Virus record (IMG/VR): IMGVR_UViG_3300046003_003268
Location: 1-21,380 of that record
Origin: a virus
Reading direction: 5' to 3' (one strand)
Length of the DNA stretch: 21,380 nt
This document shows, piece after piece, positions 14,380-21,380 of this stretch; the stretch's first letter is position 1, and each line of letters starts with the position of its first letter. The notes under the pieces were generated by a model that was not told the origin of the DNA, ran no database searches, and saw nothing but the letters and a program-made list of their open reading frames with translations. The position numbers and the translations under genes are program-made.

Positions 14380-14413
14380 AAAAAGCCGTTTCGATTGTCC
14401 GAAACGGCTTTTT
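14380..14413 (-). terminator. Strong intrinsic terminator after the replication genes
   Basis: AAAAAGCCGTTTCG (14380-14393) and CGAAACGGCTTTTT (14400-14413) form a perfect 14-bp stem around a 6-nt loop. It is symmetrical, with A and T runs at its ends, so it can stop transcription on both strands. It begins 15 nt after the TAG/TAA of the primase-helicase gene on the minus strand and closes the replication operon. It also separates that operon from the repeat region. Confidence 0.85.
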
Positions 14414-14428
14414 GTACACTATCGAAAA

Positions 14429-16591
14429 TCACTCAATAGCCTGAAACGTGACAGCTAATCGCCCGCCAGTTTCCCTCTCACCTTGCTGAACGCAGCCAGA
14501 TTGAATCAAGGTTGCCAAGATGTCGGCTCTGTCCCTTGGCTTCAATTTTTGCGTTCGTCGAGTTATTTCATTCATCCCCCATTCCCCTGGACGCGATCTG
14601 AGCAGCGTTCTCATCTCATTGACCATCTGACCGAACGGACTGCCTGAAACGTGCCTATCGGCCTGCTGGAGGATTTTGCGCGTGATCCAGTTGTTGAGGC
14701 GGATTGCAAGTTCGGCATCTTCCGCTTGGATCGTTGGAACATACTGACCCGACGCGCGAGAGCAGGCGAACAGCATTGCGAGCTTTACTGTTTTTTCCGC
14801 CGCCCTAGACCAGATGGCTGCTGTAATTGGCTCCTCTGTCATTCTCCGCTTGGAGATCTTGACAGCATGTTCGTGCAACCTTGCGTGAGCCGCTTCGTCT
14901 CTCTGGATGCAGATTGGAGACGATCCGTCCGACTGGTCAGCCAGATTCCCGGCCGATGTCCTCAGTTGCAGCCACCATGCCGCCTGATCAATTATTGACT
15001 GGGGGATCGGTTCGTTGGATGGATCTTGATAATCGACATACTTCGAAGACTCAAAGATCAGGCAGCGGCCAATCAGCCCGCCGGTCAAGTTCTTCTCGGT
15101 CATCGATTCCCAAAAATCTTGAGGAACTGCAGTCCCGTGCAAAACAAGATGAGGATAGTGCAGAGTTTTTACCTTCGCCCGATCACCGTAAGCGTCGCCG
15201 GTCCAGATGTCGTCAGCGGATGAAAACACCTGCATCAGCACGCTTGCGATCTGGACTAGATGCGGACTTGATCTGTCCTGCATCGCCATTGCCAAGTGAT
15301 GGATCTCATCCACTTGGAAAAGCATGTTCCATTGTTCTGATAATGCGGACAGAATCCCGGCATGACTTCCAATCCGTTCTGGCCCGATCATCCGATCACC
15401 ACCGCACAATCTCAGGATCTTGCGGTTGAGCTTCCGCCCGTGATCCTTCCCAGCTCCCGAAAGAGCTAGGCTGATAATCATCAGATTGGTTCTCGCTCCG
15501 CGATCCGATACCTTGCCGCCGGTCAGCGTCGATAGGAGCGATAACGCCGCGCCCATCGCGACTTCTGGAAGAGGGTAATGAGCAGTCGATAAATTGTATC
15601 GGATCAAATCCCCGAGGAATCCCGGCAGCGATTGGCAGTCAATCGGGAATGGCTCCAGCGTCGTCTTTGCCGCTTCCCGCGTGTTGAGGATCAAACTTAG
15701 ATCGACGTGAGAATGTGACTGCTGAATCAAAGCCATCGGCGGCTTGTCTTCGCGTGGCGTCCCGTTCTTGCGACCGTTGACGGATGCCTCTCTAAGCTCG
15801 CTGTCTCGAAGTGGCGGATTGTTTTTCTGATTCCAGTCGCAGAGCAACTGATACACTTCGTCATCGGTCAAACGAGCGTGAAACTCATCTTTCATCGAAT
15901 GCAGATGACCGGCCAGAGAAAACGCTGCGTTTCTCAGATTTCCTTTCGCTTCACCCGGAACTTTTTCAACATATTTCGCCCCGCGTTGCATCAGCGATTC
16001 GGCTTCAATCCTTGGCGGCGCTGGCTCATGCTTAACGGTCCCTTTCTTCTCCTGCTCTCCGCTCAGGTAAGTTTTGCACAGCCAGTCAATAACGGCCTGC
16101 CCATCACCAATCTCATCATTGCCGTTGTAGACATCGCCCGTGATCGTCCAGAATCGATCATGGTCGTAGCATTCAATCTGCTGCTTGTCGTCCTTGCCGG
16201 GATTGATCTTGTGAAGGCAACGAAAGCCTTCAGGCTTGCGTGCCTTCGTGATGAACTTGACGCCTGTTTTGCTTGGCGAAATTTCCGCGTAAGCAACTCC
16301 GTCAAGCCTCGCGATGATCGGCAAAGCCCAGTCGCGGAAGTCCCCGTCTTCCGTCAGACAGTTGTCAAGATCGATGCCGGTGTAAGGCTCAGCGATAACC
16401 GTGGCGATGCCCTGATAATAGATTGAGGAATCAACCGCGATATCGAAAGCACACCATGCAGACGGATCTGTGGAGCTTCCGGCATCGCCGCCGAGCCTGA
16501 GCGGAATCTTTGTTCCCTTGCTGTTGTAGTTCCACAGCATCCATCGCTTTAGGTCTTTCAGTTCTTGCGGAACGCGATCGTAGTCATTCAT
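14429..16591 (-). CDS. Primase-polymerase fused to DUF3987-type helicase ATPase, 720 aa
   Basis: I choose the ATG at 16591, which overlaps the TAA of the preceding gene by one base; a TTG at 16606 would add five residues. Residues 1-165 are a primase-polymerase domain like that of NrS-1-type phage enzymes: VPQELKDLKRWMLWNY, the catalytic-type GIDLDNC (72-78), EISPSKTGVKF (103-113) and IECYDHDRFWTITGD (139-153). Residues 195-280 look like a helical linker of the PriCT type. Residues 320-600 are an ATPase: Walker A SGAGKD (378-383), with Asp after the Lys as in this family, and Walker B FQVDEIHH (425-432). The C-terminal part may be a winged helix (EWGMNEITRRTQKLKPRDRA). It probably primes and unwinds DNA at the phage origin. 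Confidence 0.85.
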   Translation of the reverse strand: MNDYDRVPQELKDLKRWMLWNYNSKGTKIPLRLGGDAGSSTDPSAWCAFDIAVDSSIYYQGIATVIAEPYTGIDLDNCLTEDGDFRDWALPIIARLDGVAYAEISPSKTGVKFITKARKPEGFRCLHKINPGKDDKQQIECYDHDRFWTITGDVYNGNDEIGDGQAVIDWLCKTYLSGEQEKKGTVKHEPAPPRIEAESLMQRGAKYVEKVPGEAKGNLRNAAFSLAGHLHSMKDEFHARLTDDEVYQLLCDWNQKNNPPLRDSELREASVNGRKNGTPREDKPPMALIQQSHSHVDLSLILNTREAAKTTLEPFPIDCQSLPGFLGDLIRYNLSTAHYPLPEVAMGAALSLLSTLTGGKVSDRGARTNLMIISLALSGAGKDHGRKLNRKILRLCGGDRMIGPERIGSHAGILSALSEQWNMLFQVDEIHHLAMAMQDRSSPHLVQIASVLMQVFSSADDIWTGDAYGDRAKVKTLHYPHLVLHGTAVPQDFWESMTEKNLTGGLIGRCLIFESSKYVDYQDPSNEPIPQSIIDQAAWWLQLRTSAGNLADQSDGSSPICIQRDEAAHARLHEHAVKISKRRMTEEPITAAIWSRAAEKTVKLAMLFACSRASGQYVPTIQAEDAELAIRLNNWITRKILQQADRHVSGSPFGQMVNEMRTLLRSRPGEWGMNEITRRTQKLKPRDRADILATLIQSGCVQQGERETGGRLAVTFQAIE

Positions 16592-17082
16592 TATTGCTTC
16601 GCCCAAGGGTTACGTGTCGCAATTGGCTTTTCAACTCGCAAGACCTCAGCGAAAATAACTCGCTCAAGATCCCTCACTCTCGATTCAAGTTTTTGAATAA
16701 TTTCGAGCAAGCAGGCATCGCCATCATTTCCTGTCTTAGACGACTGCGACTTTGCCTTTTCTTTCTTGCGACTTTGCAGAACATGTTGCGGCTCAGGCTC
16801 TTTCGGAATCACAAGTTCGTGGAAAACACTTGCCACAATCTCTCGCCTTCTTTCTGAGTCGAATCCAACGGACTCTTCCTCATCGTCTGAAAGCCATGTT
16901 TCTTGAATCATGAAGTCTCTGCCGAGATGGCCTCTTGCGTTCTTCATGTCTAGAGCCTGAAGCAACCCGAGTCTCTGCCGATCGTTTTTGTGAAGATAAG
17001 CAAATCTTCTGTGCTGCATGTTCCCGCAGATAACCCGAGTGTTATCGTCGATCTTGTATGATGTTTCAGAACGGACAGTCAT
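16591..17082 (-). CDS. Hypothetical protein with C-terminal coiled coil, 163 aa
   Basis: I choose the second of two adjacent ATGs (17082), since GGGGTGG lies just upstream. The frame is open further to 17148 inside the helicase gene, but that part is unlikely to be coding. The product begins MTVRSETSYKIDDNTRVICG, continues RRFAYLHKNDRQRLGLLQAL and FMIQETWLSDDEEESVGFDS, and then becomes charged. Residues about 125-150 form a coiled coil (LLEIIQKLESRVRDLERVIF), and it ends NPWAKQ. No family is recognised. It overlaps the helicase gene by 17 nt and the primase gene by one base. A role as a helicase partner or loader is possible from place only. Confidence 0.7.
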   Translation of the reverse strand: MTVRSETSYKIDDNTRVICGNMQHRRFAYLHKNDRQRLGLLQALDMKNARGHLGRDFMIQETWLSDDEEESVGFDSERRREIVASVFHELVIPKEPEPQHVLQSRKKEKAKSQSSKTGNDGDACLLEIIQKLESRVRDLERVIFAEVLRVEKPIATRNPWAKQ

Positions 17083-18751
17083 CATCCACCCCACTGAAAA
17101 CTTTTGTCTCTTCCTGCTGTGCCAACTCCGTCGGCTTCTCCGATTCAAAGAAGCACTCCGTGATGCGATGCCAGCGCCCGTCCTTCTTCGTCGTGATCCT
17201 GACCGGCCTCCGGCAGACGCCCATGTTGATCAGGGCCACAGCGTCCGTTGCGTTGTCGGGTGGATCGCAAAGACTTCGAGCGTCCCACCATGCCAAGAAC
17301 TTTGAGCGAGCAAAGCCCTGATGCCCTGGGCAGGTCCACTCAGCAATGGTGATCGTTGCGAGGTTTCCGGATTCGCCTTTTTTGGTGCAAACGTAATCAA
17401 CACGGACTGTCTGCGGAGCTTCGCCGTCATCCTTCTTTGTGTGGACTCGAACGACAACGTCTTTAACGTCCCATTCTTCGGGAGGCATTGAGCCTGTCAA
17501 CTGGCTGCTTTCGTCCGCCGTCGTGTCGTGCTTCAGTTCCCGCTCACGAGGAAAAATGAAATTGCACTCAGGGCAGGCGACTGTTGCCGGAGACACATCC
17601 AGCTCGCAGGACGGGCATTTCTTCCCGCGTCCGTTTTCGGCAGCAACCCCCGCTCGCCCTTTGCCCTCCGACCGCCCAAAGTTCTCGTCATCAATTGAAC
17701 CATGCCGAGCGATGTTTCCGCCAAAGTCTAAGAGTAGGCAGTTGGCTTTGCTGGCATGCAAGCGCAACCCGCGACCGACCATCTGACAGAAAAGCCCTGG
17801 CGACATCGTTGCGCGAAGGATGGCAATCGCATCGACGCATTTCGCGTTGAAGCCTGTGGTGAGAACATCGACGTTTACCAAAAAGCGAAGCTCACCCGCG
17901 ACAAATCTCCGCAGCGTTTCCGCCCGTTCGATTGGCAGCGTCTCGCCAGTGACGACAGCAGACCCCGGCAGCAACTCCGCGATCTGTTCCGCGTGATGAA
18001 CCCCGGACGCAAAGACCAGCACACTGTGCCTGCCCTGTGTCTTCTCAAGGATCTCCGCACAAGCGGCCTGAACCTTTTCGTCGACATCGAAAGCCGCCTG
18101 CATTTCCGATTCGACGAACTCACCACCGCGAAGCGAAACTTTGTCAGTGTTAACCTCCGCGTCTGCGACTTTGTTGGTGATCGGACAAAGAAAACCTTCA
18201 GCAATTAGCTGAGCCGTCTTCGCCTCAAAAACGATCCGCTGGAACTGTCGATCAGGTCCGCAGATTGGACCGGCCCCGGTTCTGAACGGGGTAGCGGTCA
18301 GGCCCACAATGCGGAGTCCTTCGTTGGCCTTCATGGCCGTAAGGAATTGGCCATACATTGATTCTTCGAGATCGCTAATGAGGTGAGCTTCATCAACAAT
18401 CACAAGGTGCCGCCTGCCGAGATCGTCAGCCTTGCGGAACACGGACTGAATGCCAGCGACAACAACCGCGTTATGAATCTCTTTCGATTTCAGACCTGCT
18501 GAATAGATCCCGACATCAACGCCCGGAATCAATCCCCTGATCTCATCAGCGTTCTGCTGCAGCAACTCTTTTCGGTGAGCCAACACGACAACACGGCCAC
18601 CGAACTCAAGAGCCTGCTGAATCAGTAGGGCAATCAACAGGCTTTTCCCGGCTCCCGTCGGCAAGACGACAACGGGGTTCCCGGATTTCTCATTGAGATA
18701 CTTCCAGACGGCTTCGTTGGCTTGTGACTGATACCATCGAGGGGACAGCAT
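17066..18751 (-). CDS. Superfamily 2 DEAH-box helicase with zinc ribbon and SSB-like tail, 561 aa
   Basis: Motifs are complete and in order: Q-motif region RWYQSQANEAVWKYL, Walker A PTGAGKS (31-37), motif Ia VVVLAHRKELLQQ, DEAH (120-123), motif III TATPFRTG (152-159), motif V VDVLTTGFN (294-302) and motif VI QMVGRGLRLH (323-332). This is the SSL2/RadD-like type found in phage replication modules. Residues 379-396 hold a four-Cys zinc ribbon (CPSC ... CPEC). The protein ends VDDDCPF, which closely resembles the acidic DDDIPF tail of bacterial single-strand-binding protein. It begins directly after the TGA of the preceding gene, with GGAG upstream. It probably remodels replication or recombination intermediates. 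Confidence 0.9.
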   Translation of the reverse strand: MLSPRWYQSQANEAVWKYLNEKSGNPVVVLPTGAGKSLLIALLIQQALEFGGRVVVLAHRKELLQQNADEIRGLIPGVDVGIYSAGLKSKEIHNAVVVAGIQSVFRKADDLGRRHLVIVDEAHLISDLEESMYGQFLTAMKANEGLRIVGLTATPFRTGAGPICGPDRQFQRIVFEAKTAQLIAEGFLCPITNKVADAEVNTDKVSLRGGEFVESEMQAAFDVDEKVQAACAEILEKTQGRHSVLVFASGVHHAEQIAELLPGSAVVTGETLPIERAETLRRFVAGELRFLVNVDVLTTGFNAKCVDAIAILRATMSPGLFCQMVGRGLRLHASKANCLLLDFGGNIARHGSIDDENFGRSEGKGRAGVAAENGRGKKCPSCELDVSPATVACPECNFIFPRERELKHDTTADESSQLTGSMPPEEWDVKDVVVRVHTKKDDGEAPQTVRVDYVCTKKGESGNLATITIAEWTCPGHQGFARSKFLAWWDARSLCDPPDNATDAVALINMGVCRRPVRITTKKDGRWHRITECFFESEKPTELAQQEETKVFSGVDDDCPF

Positions 18752-18958: not shown

Positions 18959-19040
18959 GTTCAGTTGCCTCCTGTAAGATTTGAAGAGACTGGCGAAGCC
19001 AATTGCCGTCGCCAGTCTTTTTGTCGTAGGTGTCGATCAT
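18849..19040 (-). CDS. Possible small protein overlapping the GTG-started gene, 63 aa
   Basis: The ATG at 19040 overlaps the TGA of the DUF1351-like gene (ATGA), the same coupling used all over this operon, and the frame fills the 78-nt gap up to the GTG start at 18958. The first 35 residues look like a real protein (MIDTYDKKTGDGNWLRQSLQ, then ILQEATERVQRTKSQ), mostly helical. The second part, which shares 110 nt with the next gene in another frame, is low in hydrophobic residues (GANASGDSATTAQKDLQSR). Either a true overlapping gene, or a gene whose stop was lost so that it now runs into its neighbour, would explain this. Confidence 0.45.
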   Translation of the reverse strand: MIDTYDKKTGDGNWLRQSLQILQEATERVQRTKSQMAEEDRGANASGDSATTAQKDLQSRDAG

Positions 19041-19978
19041 CGACATTGCACCAATGAGATGATGGTTGCGCCGCAGTTCCTGATTGCGTGCATCGCATCG
19101 CTACCCCACTCAGGATTCCCCAGGTGAATCAGAGAATCCTGAGCGTCCGTGATCATGCACTCGGCAAAGCTCTGAGCCTTTTCAATTTCCGGCTTCAGTG
19201 CTTCGAGCCTTGCGGCTTCAGCGGCTTCGCGTTCGGCTTTGGCTTTCGCTTCGGCTGCTTTTCGAAGTTCCTCCTGCTGCTGTCGCAATGCTTCCCGCTC
19301 TGCCTCCATGGCCTTGCGTTGTTCCGCCAAGGCGGCTTCGTCAGCCAGTCGTTGCCTTTCCATTTCGGCCGCGCGGATGCGAAGTTCTTCGGCCTGTCGC
19401 TTCGACTCTTCAGCCATCTTCGCGGCCAGTTCTTCGCGTTCCTTGCGTTGCTTCGCCTCAAATTCTTGAGCGATGCGTTTCTCTTCAGCAATGATCGCGG
19501 CCTGCTCCGCAGCGGCTTTCTTTGCCTTAGAGAACCACCACATCCATTCTTCTTCCGGAAGCTCAGCCGCAGCCCAATCAATGGCGATGCCATTGGCAAC
19601 CATGTCGTTGATGCGGATTTGTTTCTTCGCGACTTTCTCAGCTTCCTTTGCAGCCTTCTCGGCTTTCTCAACAGCGTCAAAGGCGTCGCGTTCGGCCTTC
19701 AATTTTGCTTCGACTCCGTCGACTTTTTCAGTCAACTGTTTCGCGATGCTGTCGACCGTCCGCCCGTATTCCAGAGCGTCGGCCTTCAGTTCTTTTCGCT
19801 TCTTCTCAATGTTCGCGTTTAGTTTCTTGACGAACTTGTGAGCCTCTTCAACCTGTCCGATTCCGGCCTCTGCCACGGTCAAAAGACCATAGGGCAAAAC
19901 CTGTTCAATCATCGCATTAAATGTCGATAGTTCCTGCACGGCCCTGTCTGTCATCGTGAGTTCAGTCGTCGCTGTCAT
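19037..19978 (-). CDS. DUF1351-like coiled-coil protein, 313 aa
   Basis: Residues 1-100 form a helical N-terminal part (LPYGLLTVAEAGIGQVEEAH, KFVKKLNANIEKKRKELKAD) like that of DUF1351-type phage proteins, which occur next to recombination genes. Residues 90-265 are one very long charged helix rich in Ala, Glu, Lys, Arg and Gln, interrupted near residues 122-150 by a compact element (INDMVANGIAIDWAAAELPE, then EEWMWWFSKA). The C-terminal 45 residues are again globular (FAECMITDAQDSLIHLG). The ATG at 19978 has an excellent GGAGGTG ribosome-binding sequence. It probably acts as a scaffold or DNA-binding partner in phage recombination; function is inferred from context. Confidence 0.8.
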   Translation of the reverse strand: MTATTELTMTDRAVQELSTFNAMIEQVLPYGLLTVAEAGIGQVEEAHKFVKKLNANIEKKRKELKADALEYGRTVDSIAKQLTEKVDGVEAKLKAERDAFDAVEKAEKAAKEAEKVAKKQIRINDMVANGIAIDWAAAELPEEEWMWWFSKAKKAAAEQAAIIAEEKRIAQEFEAKQRKEREELAAKMAEESKRQAEELRIRAAEMERQRLADEAALAEQRKAMEAEREALRQQQEELRKAAEAKAKAEREAAEAARLEALKPEIEKAQSFAECMITDAQDSLIHLGNPEWGSDAMHAIRNCGATIISLVQCR

Positions 19979-20219
19979 TGATCACCTCCACCTTGATATC
20001 GAAACAAGTAATTCCATGCTGCGACCGCAGCTTCCCGCACATCTCCGTGATCCATTGATCACCTTGCATTTGTTTGACCTGCCACGGTTCCAAAAACAGA
20101 ACAATCACTGTCTCCTGAACTGGCCTGCTTTTGCTTTTGATGTCGGCCTGAATGTGACTCACCAACATCGCTGGCCATGGTTGCTGAACCTCAGTTGTCA
20201 GCGTCATTCGGCATTGCAT
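19962..20219 (-). CDS. Hypothetical protein, 85 aa
   Basis: I choose the ATG at 20219, because GGAGG lies eight nucleotides upstream; another ATG two codons earlier is too close to this site. The product begins MQCRMTLTTEVQQPWPAMLV, continues SHIQADIKSKSRPVQETVIV and LFLEPWQVKQMQGDQWITEM, and ends DIKVEVINDSDD. It is predicted mixed alpha/beta with an acidic end. Its last 17 nt overlap the DUF1351-like gene. The ribosome-binding site starts just after the T-run of a strong terminator. I do not recognise a family. Confidence 0.65.
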   Translation of the reverse strand: MQCRMTLTTEVQQPWPAMLVSHIQADIKSKSRPVQETVIVLFLEPWQVKQMQGDQWITEMCGKLRSQHGITCFDIKVEVINDSDD

Positions 20220-20238
20220 CTGCATTCCCTCCGTCGAT

Positions 20239-20266
20239 AAAAAAGGCGCGGAGATTGCCCCGCGCC
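20239..20266 (-). terminator. Strong intrinsic terminator inside the recombination operon
   Basis: On the minus strand GGCGCGG (20260-20266) and CCGCGCC (20245-20251) pair perfectly, with an 8-nt loop, followed at once by TTTTTT (20239-20244). It lies 13 nt after the TAG of the DUF669-like gene. The next ribosome-binding site follows within a few nucleotides, so there is no room for a new promoter before the next gene. It may set relative amounts of upstream and downstream genes or be a target of anti-termination. Confidence 0.85.
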
Positions 20267-20279
20267 TATGTTGTTGATA

Positions 20280-20729
20280 CTACCAGCCAGCAGGCTTGCC
20301 AGCGGTTGCTGTCTTTTCCGCAGGAGCAGAAGACGACGCGGGAAGGCAGGCTTTGTAGCCCTTCACTTCGTTCTGGTTGTTGCCGTTGTATTCCTTCACA
20401 GCCAGCTTGATCATCAGCGGTTTCATGTGCAGGGCTGAAGAGTCCGGAGGCTTCGGAATGTTCAGTGCCTCGCAAACCTTCTTAAACTGCTGCTGAGCGA
20501 TCGTCGTTGCCTCTGGATTCTTGTTCCAAAGGTTGAACCGATCAATCACGGTTCGATTCTTAAACGGCCCGTCGACGATCTGCAGCTTGACCTGCAACAA
20601 CTCGCTCGCCCCGTCCTTCGTTTTCTTGCGTTCGCTCTCGGTCATGACAGCGCGATACTCGCCCGCAGGCAAAGCCTCAAACTCGCTGTCCTTCACTTGC
20701 GATGCGTCATATCCACCTAAATCAGCCAT
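20280..20729 (-). CDS. DUF669-like phage single-strand-DNA-binding-type protein, 149 aa
   Basis: The layout matches DUF669: a short acidic start (MADLGGYDASQVKDSEFEAL), then PAGEYRAVMTESERKKTKDG, ASELLQVKLQIVDGPFKNRT and VIDRFNLWNKNPEATTIAQQ. A helix with VCEALN follows, then a beta-rich end (KPLMIKLAVKEYNGNNQNEV) and a Pro/Ala/Lys-rich tail ending in GW. DUF669 proteins sit next to Sak4-type recombinases in many phages and are thought to bind single-stranded DNA. The start lies two nucleotides after the stop of the Sak4-like gene, with AAAGG upstream. A strong terminator follows directly. Confidence 0.85.
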   Translation of the reverse strand: MADLGGYDASQVKDSEFEALPAGEYRAVMTESERKKTKDGASELLQVKLQIVDGPFKNRTVIDRFNLWNKNPEATTIAQQQFKKVCEALNIPKPPDSSALHMKPLMIKLAVKEYNGNNQNEVKGYKACLPASSSAPAEKTATAGKPAGW

Positions 20730-20730
20730 C

Positions 20731-21380
20731 TCAATTACCTTTCAAAACTTCACTCGGGACAAAAAACTCTGCATACTTCTCGAACGAAAACTCAACCATT
20801 TCTTCCGGCATGTTCAAACGGTTCTTCGCGCGGACTCCCGCCGTTGGCTGAGTCCTGACGAAACGCTCGCTTCCACCCGCCGCGATGTTTCGAGTGCGAT
20901 TGAATCCGGTGTCTTCTTTGACTGCGTAAGTTCGGAACGATCCAAAGAAAACTTCCTGGCACCAGTCGCAAAGCAGATCACGAGCGAACTCACAGACGGA
21001 CGGCTCCCACCGCTCATAGGACGGTGCATCTGGCGGAGTGATCTTCACGGCTTCGCTGTGTGCCAGCAGGATGATTCCCAGCCCGCGTTCAGTGTGCAGC
21101 CAGTCCAATTGGAACTTGATCTTGTCCCACATGGCCTCAATGAATTTGTTGCCCTTGCCATACGAAAACTTGTCGTCGGCCATGCTTTCGACGTTCTTTT
21201 CTTTGCAGATCTGCTTTTCAATGATCCGCTGCAAAGCGTCGATTGTATCAATGGCAATCCAGCGATAAGGAAACTCACCTTTTGCGGCCGCTGTGTCGCA
21301 ATGCAACCAAAACTCCTGCCACTCGTCCCACGTTCGAATCGGGGGCGTCTTATCCATGTCAACGTCTCGATCGTCTTCGA
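20731..21380 (-). CDS. Sak4-like RecA-type ATPase, N-terminal part outside window
   Basis: The reading frame is open to the right edge (EDDRDVDMDKTPPIRTW at the boundary), so the gene probably starts beyond it and the Met at 21357 is internal. The Walker B strand YRWIAIDTIDAL, the KNVESMADDKFSYGKGNKF stretch, the sensor-type GLGIILLAHSEAVKI, and the end NRLNMPEEMVEFSFEKYAEF are typical of the AAA_24/Sak4 family of phage RecA-like single-strand annealing proteins. The Walker A loop would lie in the missing part. The neighbouring DUF669 gene supports the call. It probably pairs DNA strands during phage recombination and replication. Confidence 0.85.
   Translation of the reverse strand, partial: EDDRDVDMDKTPPIRTWDEWQEFWLHCDTAAAKGEFPYRWIAIDTIDALQRIIEKQICKEKNVESMADDKFSYGKGNKFIEAMWDKIKFQLDWLHTERGLGIILLAHSEAVKITPPDAPSYERWEPSVCEFARDLLCDWCQEVFFGSFRTYAVKEDTGFNRTRNIAAGGSERFVRTQPTAGVRAKNRLNMPEEMVEFSFEKYAEFFVPSEVLKGN

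Follow-up and report, generated by a model that had tools for sequence, protein, structure and literature searches.

In the window analysed here, which comprises a complete virus record of 21,380 bases, what looks like a strong transcription terminator lies inside a run of recombination and replication genes, directly behind the gene for a DUF669 protein. This raises the question of what such an element does at this place, and of how the genes behind it are reached.

The hairpin behind the DUF669 gene

The genes of the run are encoded on the minus strand. In the coding direction the stop codon TAG of the DUF669 gene (positions 20282-20280) is followed by 12 nt, the hairpin (20267-20244), the run TTTTTT, the stretch ATCGACGGAGGG and two possible start codons, ATG 20225 and ATG 20219. 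The hairpin, which reads AGGCGCGGGG-CAAT-CTCCGCGCCT from 5' to 3', has ten base pairs (eight G-C, one A-U and one G-U), a loop of CAAT and an energy of -18.3 kcal/mol; the first T of the T6 tract (20244-20239) pairs at the base of the stem. An earlier note on this DNA had described a perfect GC-rich stem with six T residues between the DUF669 gene and a next gene starting within about 20 nt. The element is indeed present at 20267-20239 on the minus strand, and the T-run is separated from ATG 20219 by about 20 nt; the stem has its ten GC-rich pairs, but it is not perfect, as pair 9 is a G-U. The hairpin is oriented along the operon only, its plus-strand reading being without a T-tract.

A stable GC-rich stem with a short loop and a T-tract placed directly at the stem is what defines an intrinsic (Rho-independent) terminator, and by these features the junction element is a predicted member of that class. 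Its d'Aubenton-Carafa score is +38, the value of a predicted strong terminator. None of 200 shuffled sequences was equally stable (z = -4.68). A strict scan for stems of at least 10 pairs, at least 8 of them G-C, with a loop of 3-8 nt and a T5, found two sites in the real window and none in 400 shuffled windows that preserved the dinucleotide composition. A looser terminator scan of the region returned 27 candidates as compared with 21.6 ± 6.0 in shuffles, a number not above chance. It is the quality of the DUF669 hairpin, rather than the count of hairpins, that stands out. The other site in the strict scan is an 11-pair GC-rich hairpin with T5 on the minus strand (11611-11586), located in the first codons of the ORF 11631-11392; its core is present in 0 of 471 loci.

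The genes around the junction

Upstream of the DUF669 gene (20280..20729, minus strand; PF05037, 1.8e-20; phrog_6015, SSB, 1.4e-28) lies the gene for a Sak4-like RecA-type ATPase or annealing protein (20731..21378, minus; PF13479 AAA_24, 1.9e-17; phrog_124, Sak4-like, 8.5e-23), whose 5' end is beyond the record. The ORF behind the hairpin (19962..20225, minus) encodes 87 aa from ATG 20225 or 85 aa from ATG 20219. The latter is the likelier start, because ATG 20225 is only 1 nt past the Shine-Dalgarno box GGAGGG that we read from the sequence (20227..20232, minus), whereas ATG 20219 is 7 nt past it; this start also agrees with the beginning MLCR... in the relative L035. The ORF overlaps by 17 nt with the gene for a coiled-coil-like protein (19037..19978, minus), and neither of the two found a match in Pfam or PHROG. 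Further downstream, the same gene run contains a DNA helicase (17066..18751, minus; PF04851, 2.5e-22; phrog_16, 2.3e-90) and, as its final replication gene, a primase (14429..16606, minus; phrog_3022, 4.1e-72). A second strong terminator behind the primase (14380..14413, minus), readable on both strands, is likely the end of the run.

Two further features of the run were observed. Between helicase and primase (17148-16591) the gene differs among relatives, with counterparts in the records G001 and G009, as if insertions had been recurrent. A terminator-like hairpin with a T-rich tail (18985-19018, -18.7 kcal/mol) occupies the intergenic space between 19037 and 18958; it is read on the plus strand, against the operon, and may block antisense transcription. 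Its core was recovered in 33 of 471 loci, many of which share a contig with another.

The DUF669 protein of the window matches the PF05037 family model with 73.9 bits (cut-off 21) as well as PHROG families of single-strand DNA-binding proteins (SSBs), and on these matches we assign it to a phage SSB family. A sequence search against solved structures gave no match. The best match of its structure model (pLDDT 78.8, pTM 0.63) is PrgE, a plasmid ssDNA binder that was solved with DNA (Foldseek 1.6e-6; Z 11.2, rmsd 2.3 over 99 residues), and several SSBs match more weakly; the protein would thus have an OB-type ssDNA-binding fold, a likeness that by itself shows no function. The fold search also found the C-terminal part of RadD to be similar to the model (Z 7.1-7.9). 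The DUF669 protein of phage HK620 is described as an SSB in vitro that stimulates the neighboring Sak4: with Sak4 at 0.5 uM, annealing was enhanced by SSB-HK620 once the latter exceeded 640 nM, and an ssb gene is reported next to as many as 80% of sak4 genes (PMC5928155). In LUZ100 and LUZ7, SSB genes are described as preceded by tandem promoters (PMC10134795).

Conservation of the hairpin and exchange of the next gene

A DNA similarity search found no isolated phage with DNA similar to the window junction, and a genome scan based on the helicase returned three relatives only, in assemblies labelled as spirochaete, with a best segment 41% identical. Relatives of DUF669 were found in 40 viral contigs, 39 of them close. 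The hairpin is present in 36 of these 39, and the other three (L038-L040) end inside DUF669, so that it is found in 36 of 36 informative relatives, always with its T-tract (T5 in 18 of the 36, otherwise T6). The fortieth relative (L041) is distant and carries a hairpin of its own. Variants among the relatives preserve the stem, with C-G replaced by U-G, G-U by A-U, an extra pair lengthening both arms, or a different loop; covariation is nevertheless weak because the 3' arm of the hairpin is almost invariant. Of 17 records searched, 13 contain a single copy of the hairpin core; the four without it (G014-G017) came in through loci that stop short of DUF669 or within it. A terminator scan of nine records found the hairpin in seven, the remaining two (G014 and G016) ending before the junction; in five records a terminator follows the primase.

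The gene behind the hairpin is far less constant. Reading 12 loci of the family and the window, we found at least five different next genes among close relatives, encoding proteins of 84-87 aa, a coiled-coil-like protein of 331-387 aa that is reached directly, and proteins of 70, 156 and 116 aa. As the hairpin is kept in every informative relative in front of these different genes, it appears to travel with DUF669. The position behind the SSB terminator (20225-19962 in the window; also L002, L026, L036 and L037) has the look of a gene-exchange site, in which the gene is swapped and the hairpin and Shine-Dalgarno box mostly stay.

DUF669 junctions in other phages

Twenty-eight diverse DUF669 phage loci formed an annotated set, of which 26 were scored; L132, which is without annotation, and L141, whose gene is annotated on the opposite strand at the record end, were left out. 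Hairpins of -8 kcal/mol or better follow DUF669 in 15 of the 26 phages, as compared with 21 of 293 other co-directional junctions, and at -11 kcal/mol the counts are 14 of 26 and 15 of 293. When gaps of at least 20 nt are considered, the difference persists (15/24 versus 20/117). The records of PaMx25, Bhz54 and PaMx42 already carry a terminator annotation at the DUF669 junction.

Three scans added 240 loci to the 40 relatives and the 28 phages, and in this wide set of 308 the DUF669 ORF was present in 306 cases, with 100 nt available behind its stop in 283. A terminator of -11 kcal/mol or better follows DUF669 in 142 of these 283 loci, a sample that is not random but follows the queries and is biased toward their relatives. 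Clusters, which are not fully independent and for which Fisher tests are therefore descriptive only, have at least one such terminator in 51 of 107 cases at 80% identity (47 by majority) and in 25 of 48 at 60% identity (20 by majority). When each 80% cluster is represented by one locus, DUF669 is followed by a terminator in 48 of 107 (0.45), and ten other operon positions in 34 of 741 (0.00 to 0.12). Other co-directional junctions have a terminator in 68 of 1520 cases, or in 32 of 526 when the gap is at least 15 nt. The d'Aubenton-Carafa score is positive for 34 of 51 DUF669 terminators and for 10 of 68 candidates at other junctions. The layout occurs in phages of many hosts, and the hairpins differ in sequence between phages; therefore it is the position, and not ancestry alone, that is kept. 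Strong hairpins without a T-tract are also present at some DUF669 junctions (Vid5, L136, -35.8 kcal/mol; Halfdan, L130; and L143), perhaps as processing or protecting stems.

Promoter room and read-through

The distance from the end of the stem to the next start preceded by a Shine-Dalgarno box has a median of 21 nt behind DUF669, and 33 of 41 distances are 45 nt or less. Under a wider definition of the box, 49 DUF669 clusters have both a terminator and an identifiable next start, and in 37 of them the space is at most 30 nt. A promoter-like site between terminator and next start was found in 4 of these 49 clusters, the search having covered sigma-70-like sites. The about 20 nt before the next start in the window hold no restart promoter of this type, and the early promoter region of the operon is outside the record. 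The earlier suggestion that the downstream genes depend on read-through is thus supported, both by the lack of room for a promoter at this junction and by the short distances in most clusters.

A probable leaky terminator and its alternatives

SSB is required in bulk, and the enzymes encoded behind it in small amounts. The explanation that we consider probable is that the SSB gene is capped, within a recombination-replication operon, by an intrinsic terminator that leaks. A fraction of the transcripts would end at the hairpin, which would protect their 3' ends and leave plentiful mRNA for Sak4 and SSB, and the remaining transcripts would read through without a new promoter, so that the helicase, the primase and other catalytic genes would be expressed at a lower level. 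A leaky terminator directly behind the SSB gene would in this way provide a ratio of high SSB to low enzyme from a single transcript. That termination occurs in vivo, that it is partial, and that the SSB-to-enzyme ratio is its purpose is what we infer. Leakiness has to be assumed, since the high score of the window terminator predicts strong termination. Two further points count against this explanation: 59 of the 107 DUF669 representatives are without a terminator by our scoring rule, and the gp32 family of SSBs uses a promoter-like site downstream. If leaky termination does set the ratio, the position of a terminator would be a predictor, from sequence only, of the stoichiometric product in phage replication operons. 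For phage annotation the finding is a caution that predicted terminators are poor grounds for splitting operons. We regard as unlikely the more far-reaching version in which the promoterless SSB-capping terminator is a valve shared by the recombination-replication operons of phages, with SSB itself, or the ribosomes finishing its gene, regulating read-through and coupling exonuclease, helicase and primase to the amount of SSB.

The earlier note had pointed to attenuation or an anti-termination system acting on the early transcript, and had proposed a search upstream for the anti-terminator. An N- or Q-like phage protein, or a nut- or put-like site in the early RNA, would let the polymerase pass this and later terminators, and the hairpin would then separate in time the early SSB from the delayed replication genes. 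In favor of this, the terminator is predicted to be strong, the genes that follow it look essential and no promoter would fit in between; the second strong terminator behind the primase points in the same direction, and for the DUF669 phage MMDA13 a Q-like antiterminator gene is reported at another place in the genome (PMC7472734). However, an Rfam search of the window and five stretches from relatives matched no family, and no antiterminator family was recognized among nine upstream proteins from two relatives. Moreover, terminators mark the SSB junction and not operon junctions in general, the hairpin accompanies the SSB gene even where a different gene follows, and for a layout shared by phages of many hosts a single leaky terminator setting a step in expression is the simpler account. 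We consider anti-termination unlikely, on a record that does not reach the early promoter region.

The hairpin might also act on the mRNA without terminating transcription: the stem would block 3'-5' exonucleases and stabilise the SSB mRNA after cleavage of a long transcript, and the T-tract would be of minor importance. Of all T4 mRNAs, that of gene 32 is described as the most stable, with an RNase E cut near the gene end (PMC3014915), and the hairpins of Vid5 and Halfdan that are without a T-tract fit a protecting stem better than a terminator. Evidence against a purely RNA-protecting stem comes from the T-tract present in all informative relatives and from the asymmetry between strands. Terminators are found at 112 of 216 DUF669 junctions on the forward strand versus 25 of 216 on the reverse strand; reverse-strand terminators at other junctions number 122 of 1520. 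Antisense ORFs were called behind DUF669 in 67 of the 283 loci; they were excluded from these 216 co-directional junctions and retained in the counts of 283 loci and 107 clusters. When hairpins were chosen without demanding a T-tract, T-rich tails followed 30 of 92 junction hairpins versus 16 of 525 in the coding background, a test that understates T-tracts because it picks the most stable stem. Taken with these counts, a purely protective role is improbable.

It is quite improbable that the hairpin is a local RNA switch, in which ribosomes ending DUF669 12 nt upstream, or a pairing between the Shine-Dalgarno region and the CUCCG of the arm, determine whether transcription terminates or how the following gene is translated. 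The distance from stop to stem is short (12 nt in the window, median 16 nt in the wide set), and the CGGAGG stretch at the Shine-Dalgarno box has the sequence to pair with the hairpin's 3' arm, one pair being G-U. But the distance is variable among phages (6 to 33 nt between the 10th and 90th percentiles), as is the next gene, and the minimum-energy fold of the whole junction keeps the stem and leaves the Shine-Dalgarno box unpaired with it. The same stem-retaining fold, the 12 nt to the stop codon and the negative Rfam result are what a test for a riboswitch or leader attenuator returned. A recombination linker, in which hairpin and Shine-Dalgarno box form a conserved boundary for the exchange of downstream genes, fits the at least five genes found behind the same hairpin in close relatives and is very improbable, as a homology linker would not predict that hairpins of other phages share the position and not the sequence.

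Comparison with known systems

In the anti-termination systems lambda N/nut, Q and HK022 put, genes behind strong terminators are reached by read-through. The DUF669 junction differs from these in that no modifying protein or RNA site was found, either with Rfam or in the nine upstream proteins. A terminator directly behind the gene of a very abundant product, the major capsid protein, is described for T7-like phages such as LUZ100; there, however, the gene is a capsid gene, a phage RNA polymerase is involved, and a local promoter is present (PMC10134795). A search for a T7-like RNA polymerase in the window and 11 relatives, 12 records in all, gave no match; as control genomes gave none either, this result carries no information. 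The T4 mobE terminator, between nrdA and nrdB, is an intra-operon terminator that ends about 30% of transcription and was proposed to balance NrdA and NrdB. It differs in being placed within the coding sequence of a homing endonuclease, and a separate middle promoter serves nrdB (PMC2988022).

The closest parallel in position is gene 32 of T4-like phages, where, as in the window, a terminator directly follows the SSB gene. In T4 itself, a strong hairpin with T6 lies 22 nt past the stop of gene 32 and is followed by a promoter-like TTTACA/TACTAT, for which the T4 relative L389 was also used. In a set of 80 gp32 loci, likewise biased toward relatives of the query and 76 of them scorable, a terminator of -11 kcal/mol or better follows gp32 in 47 of 76, versus 8 of 430 other plus-strand ORF stops; grouping at 80% identity gives 26 clusters, and in 17 of these most loci have the terminator. 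Terminators behind gene 32 had already been predicted in 5 of 6 T4-like genomes (PMC1524935). The gp32 terminator is thus in print; a promoterless DUF669 version was not found described in the open-licence literature, where many matches were unrelated.

The two groups differ in what comes after the terminator. The room to the next start behind gp32 has a median of 89 nt, and a promoter-like site is present in 10 of the 13 clusters with a located start; six further clusters lack a recognisable next start in the 600 nt that follow. The DUF669 terminators typically leave some 20 nt, free of promoter-like sites. T4 restarts with a promoter, whereas the DUF669 phages seem to rely on read-through alone, and this contrast lends support to read-through. 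The DUF669 and gp32 families are presumably unrelated by sequence. The comparison yields a testable rule: in at least two phage families a terminator closes off the SSB genes, mostly with a restart promoter behind it in the one and without any in the other.
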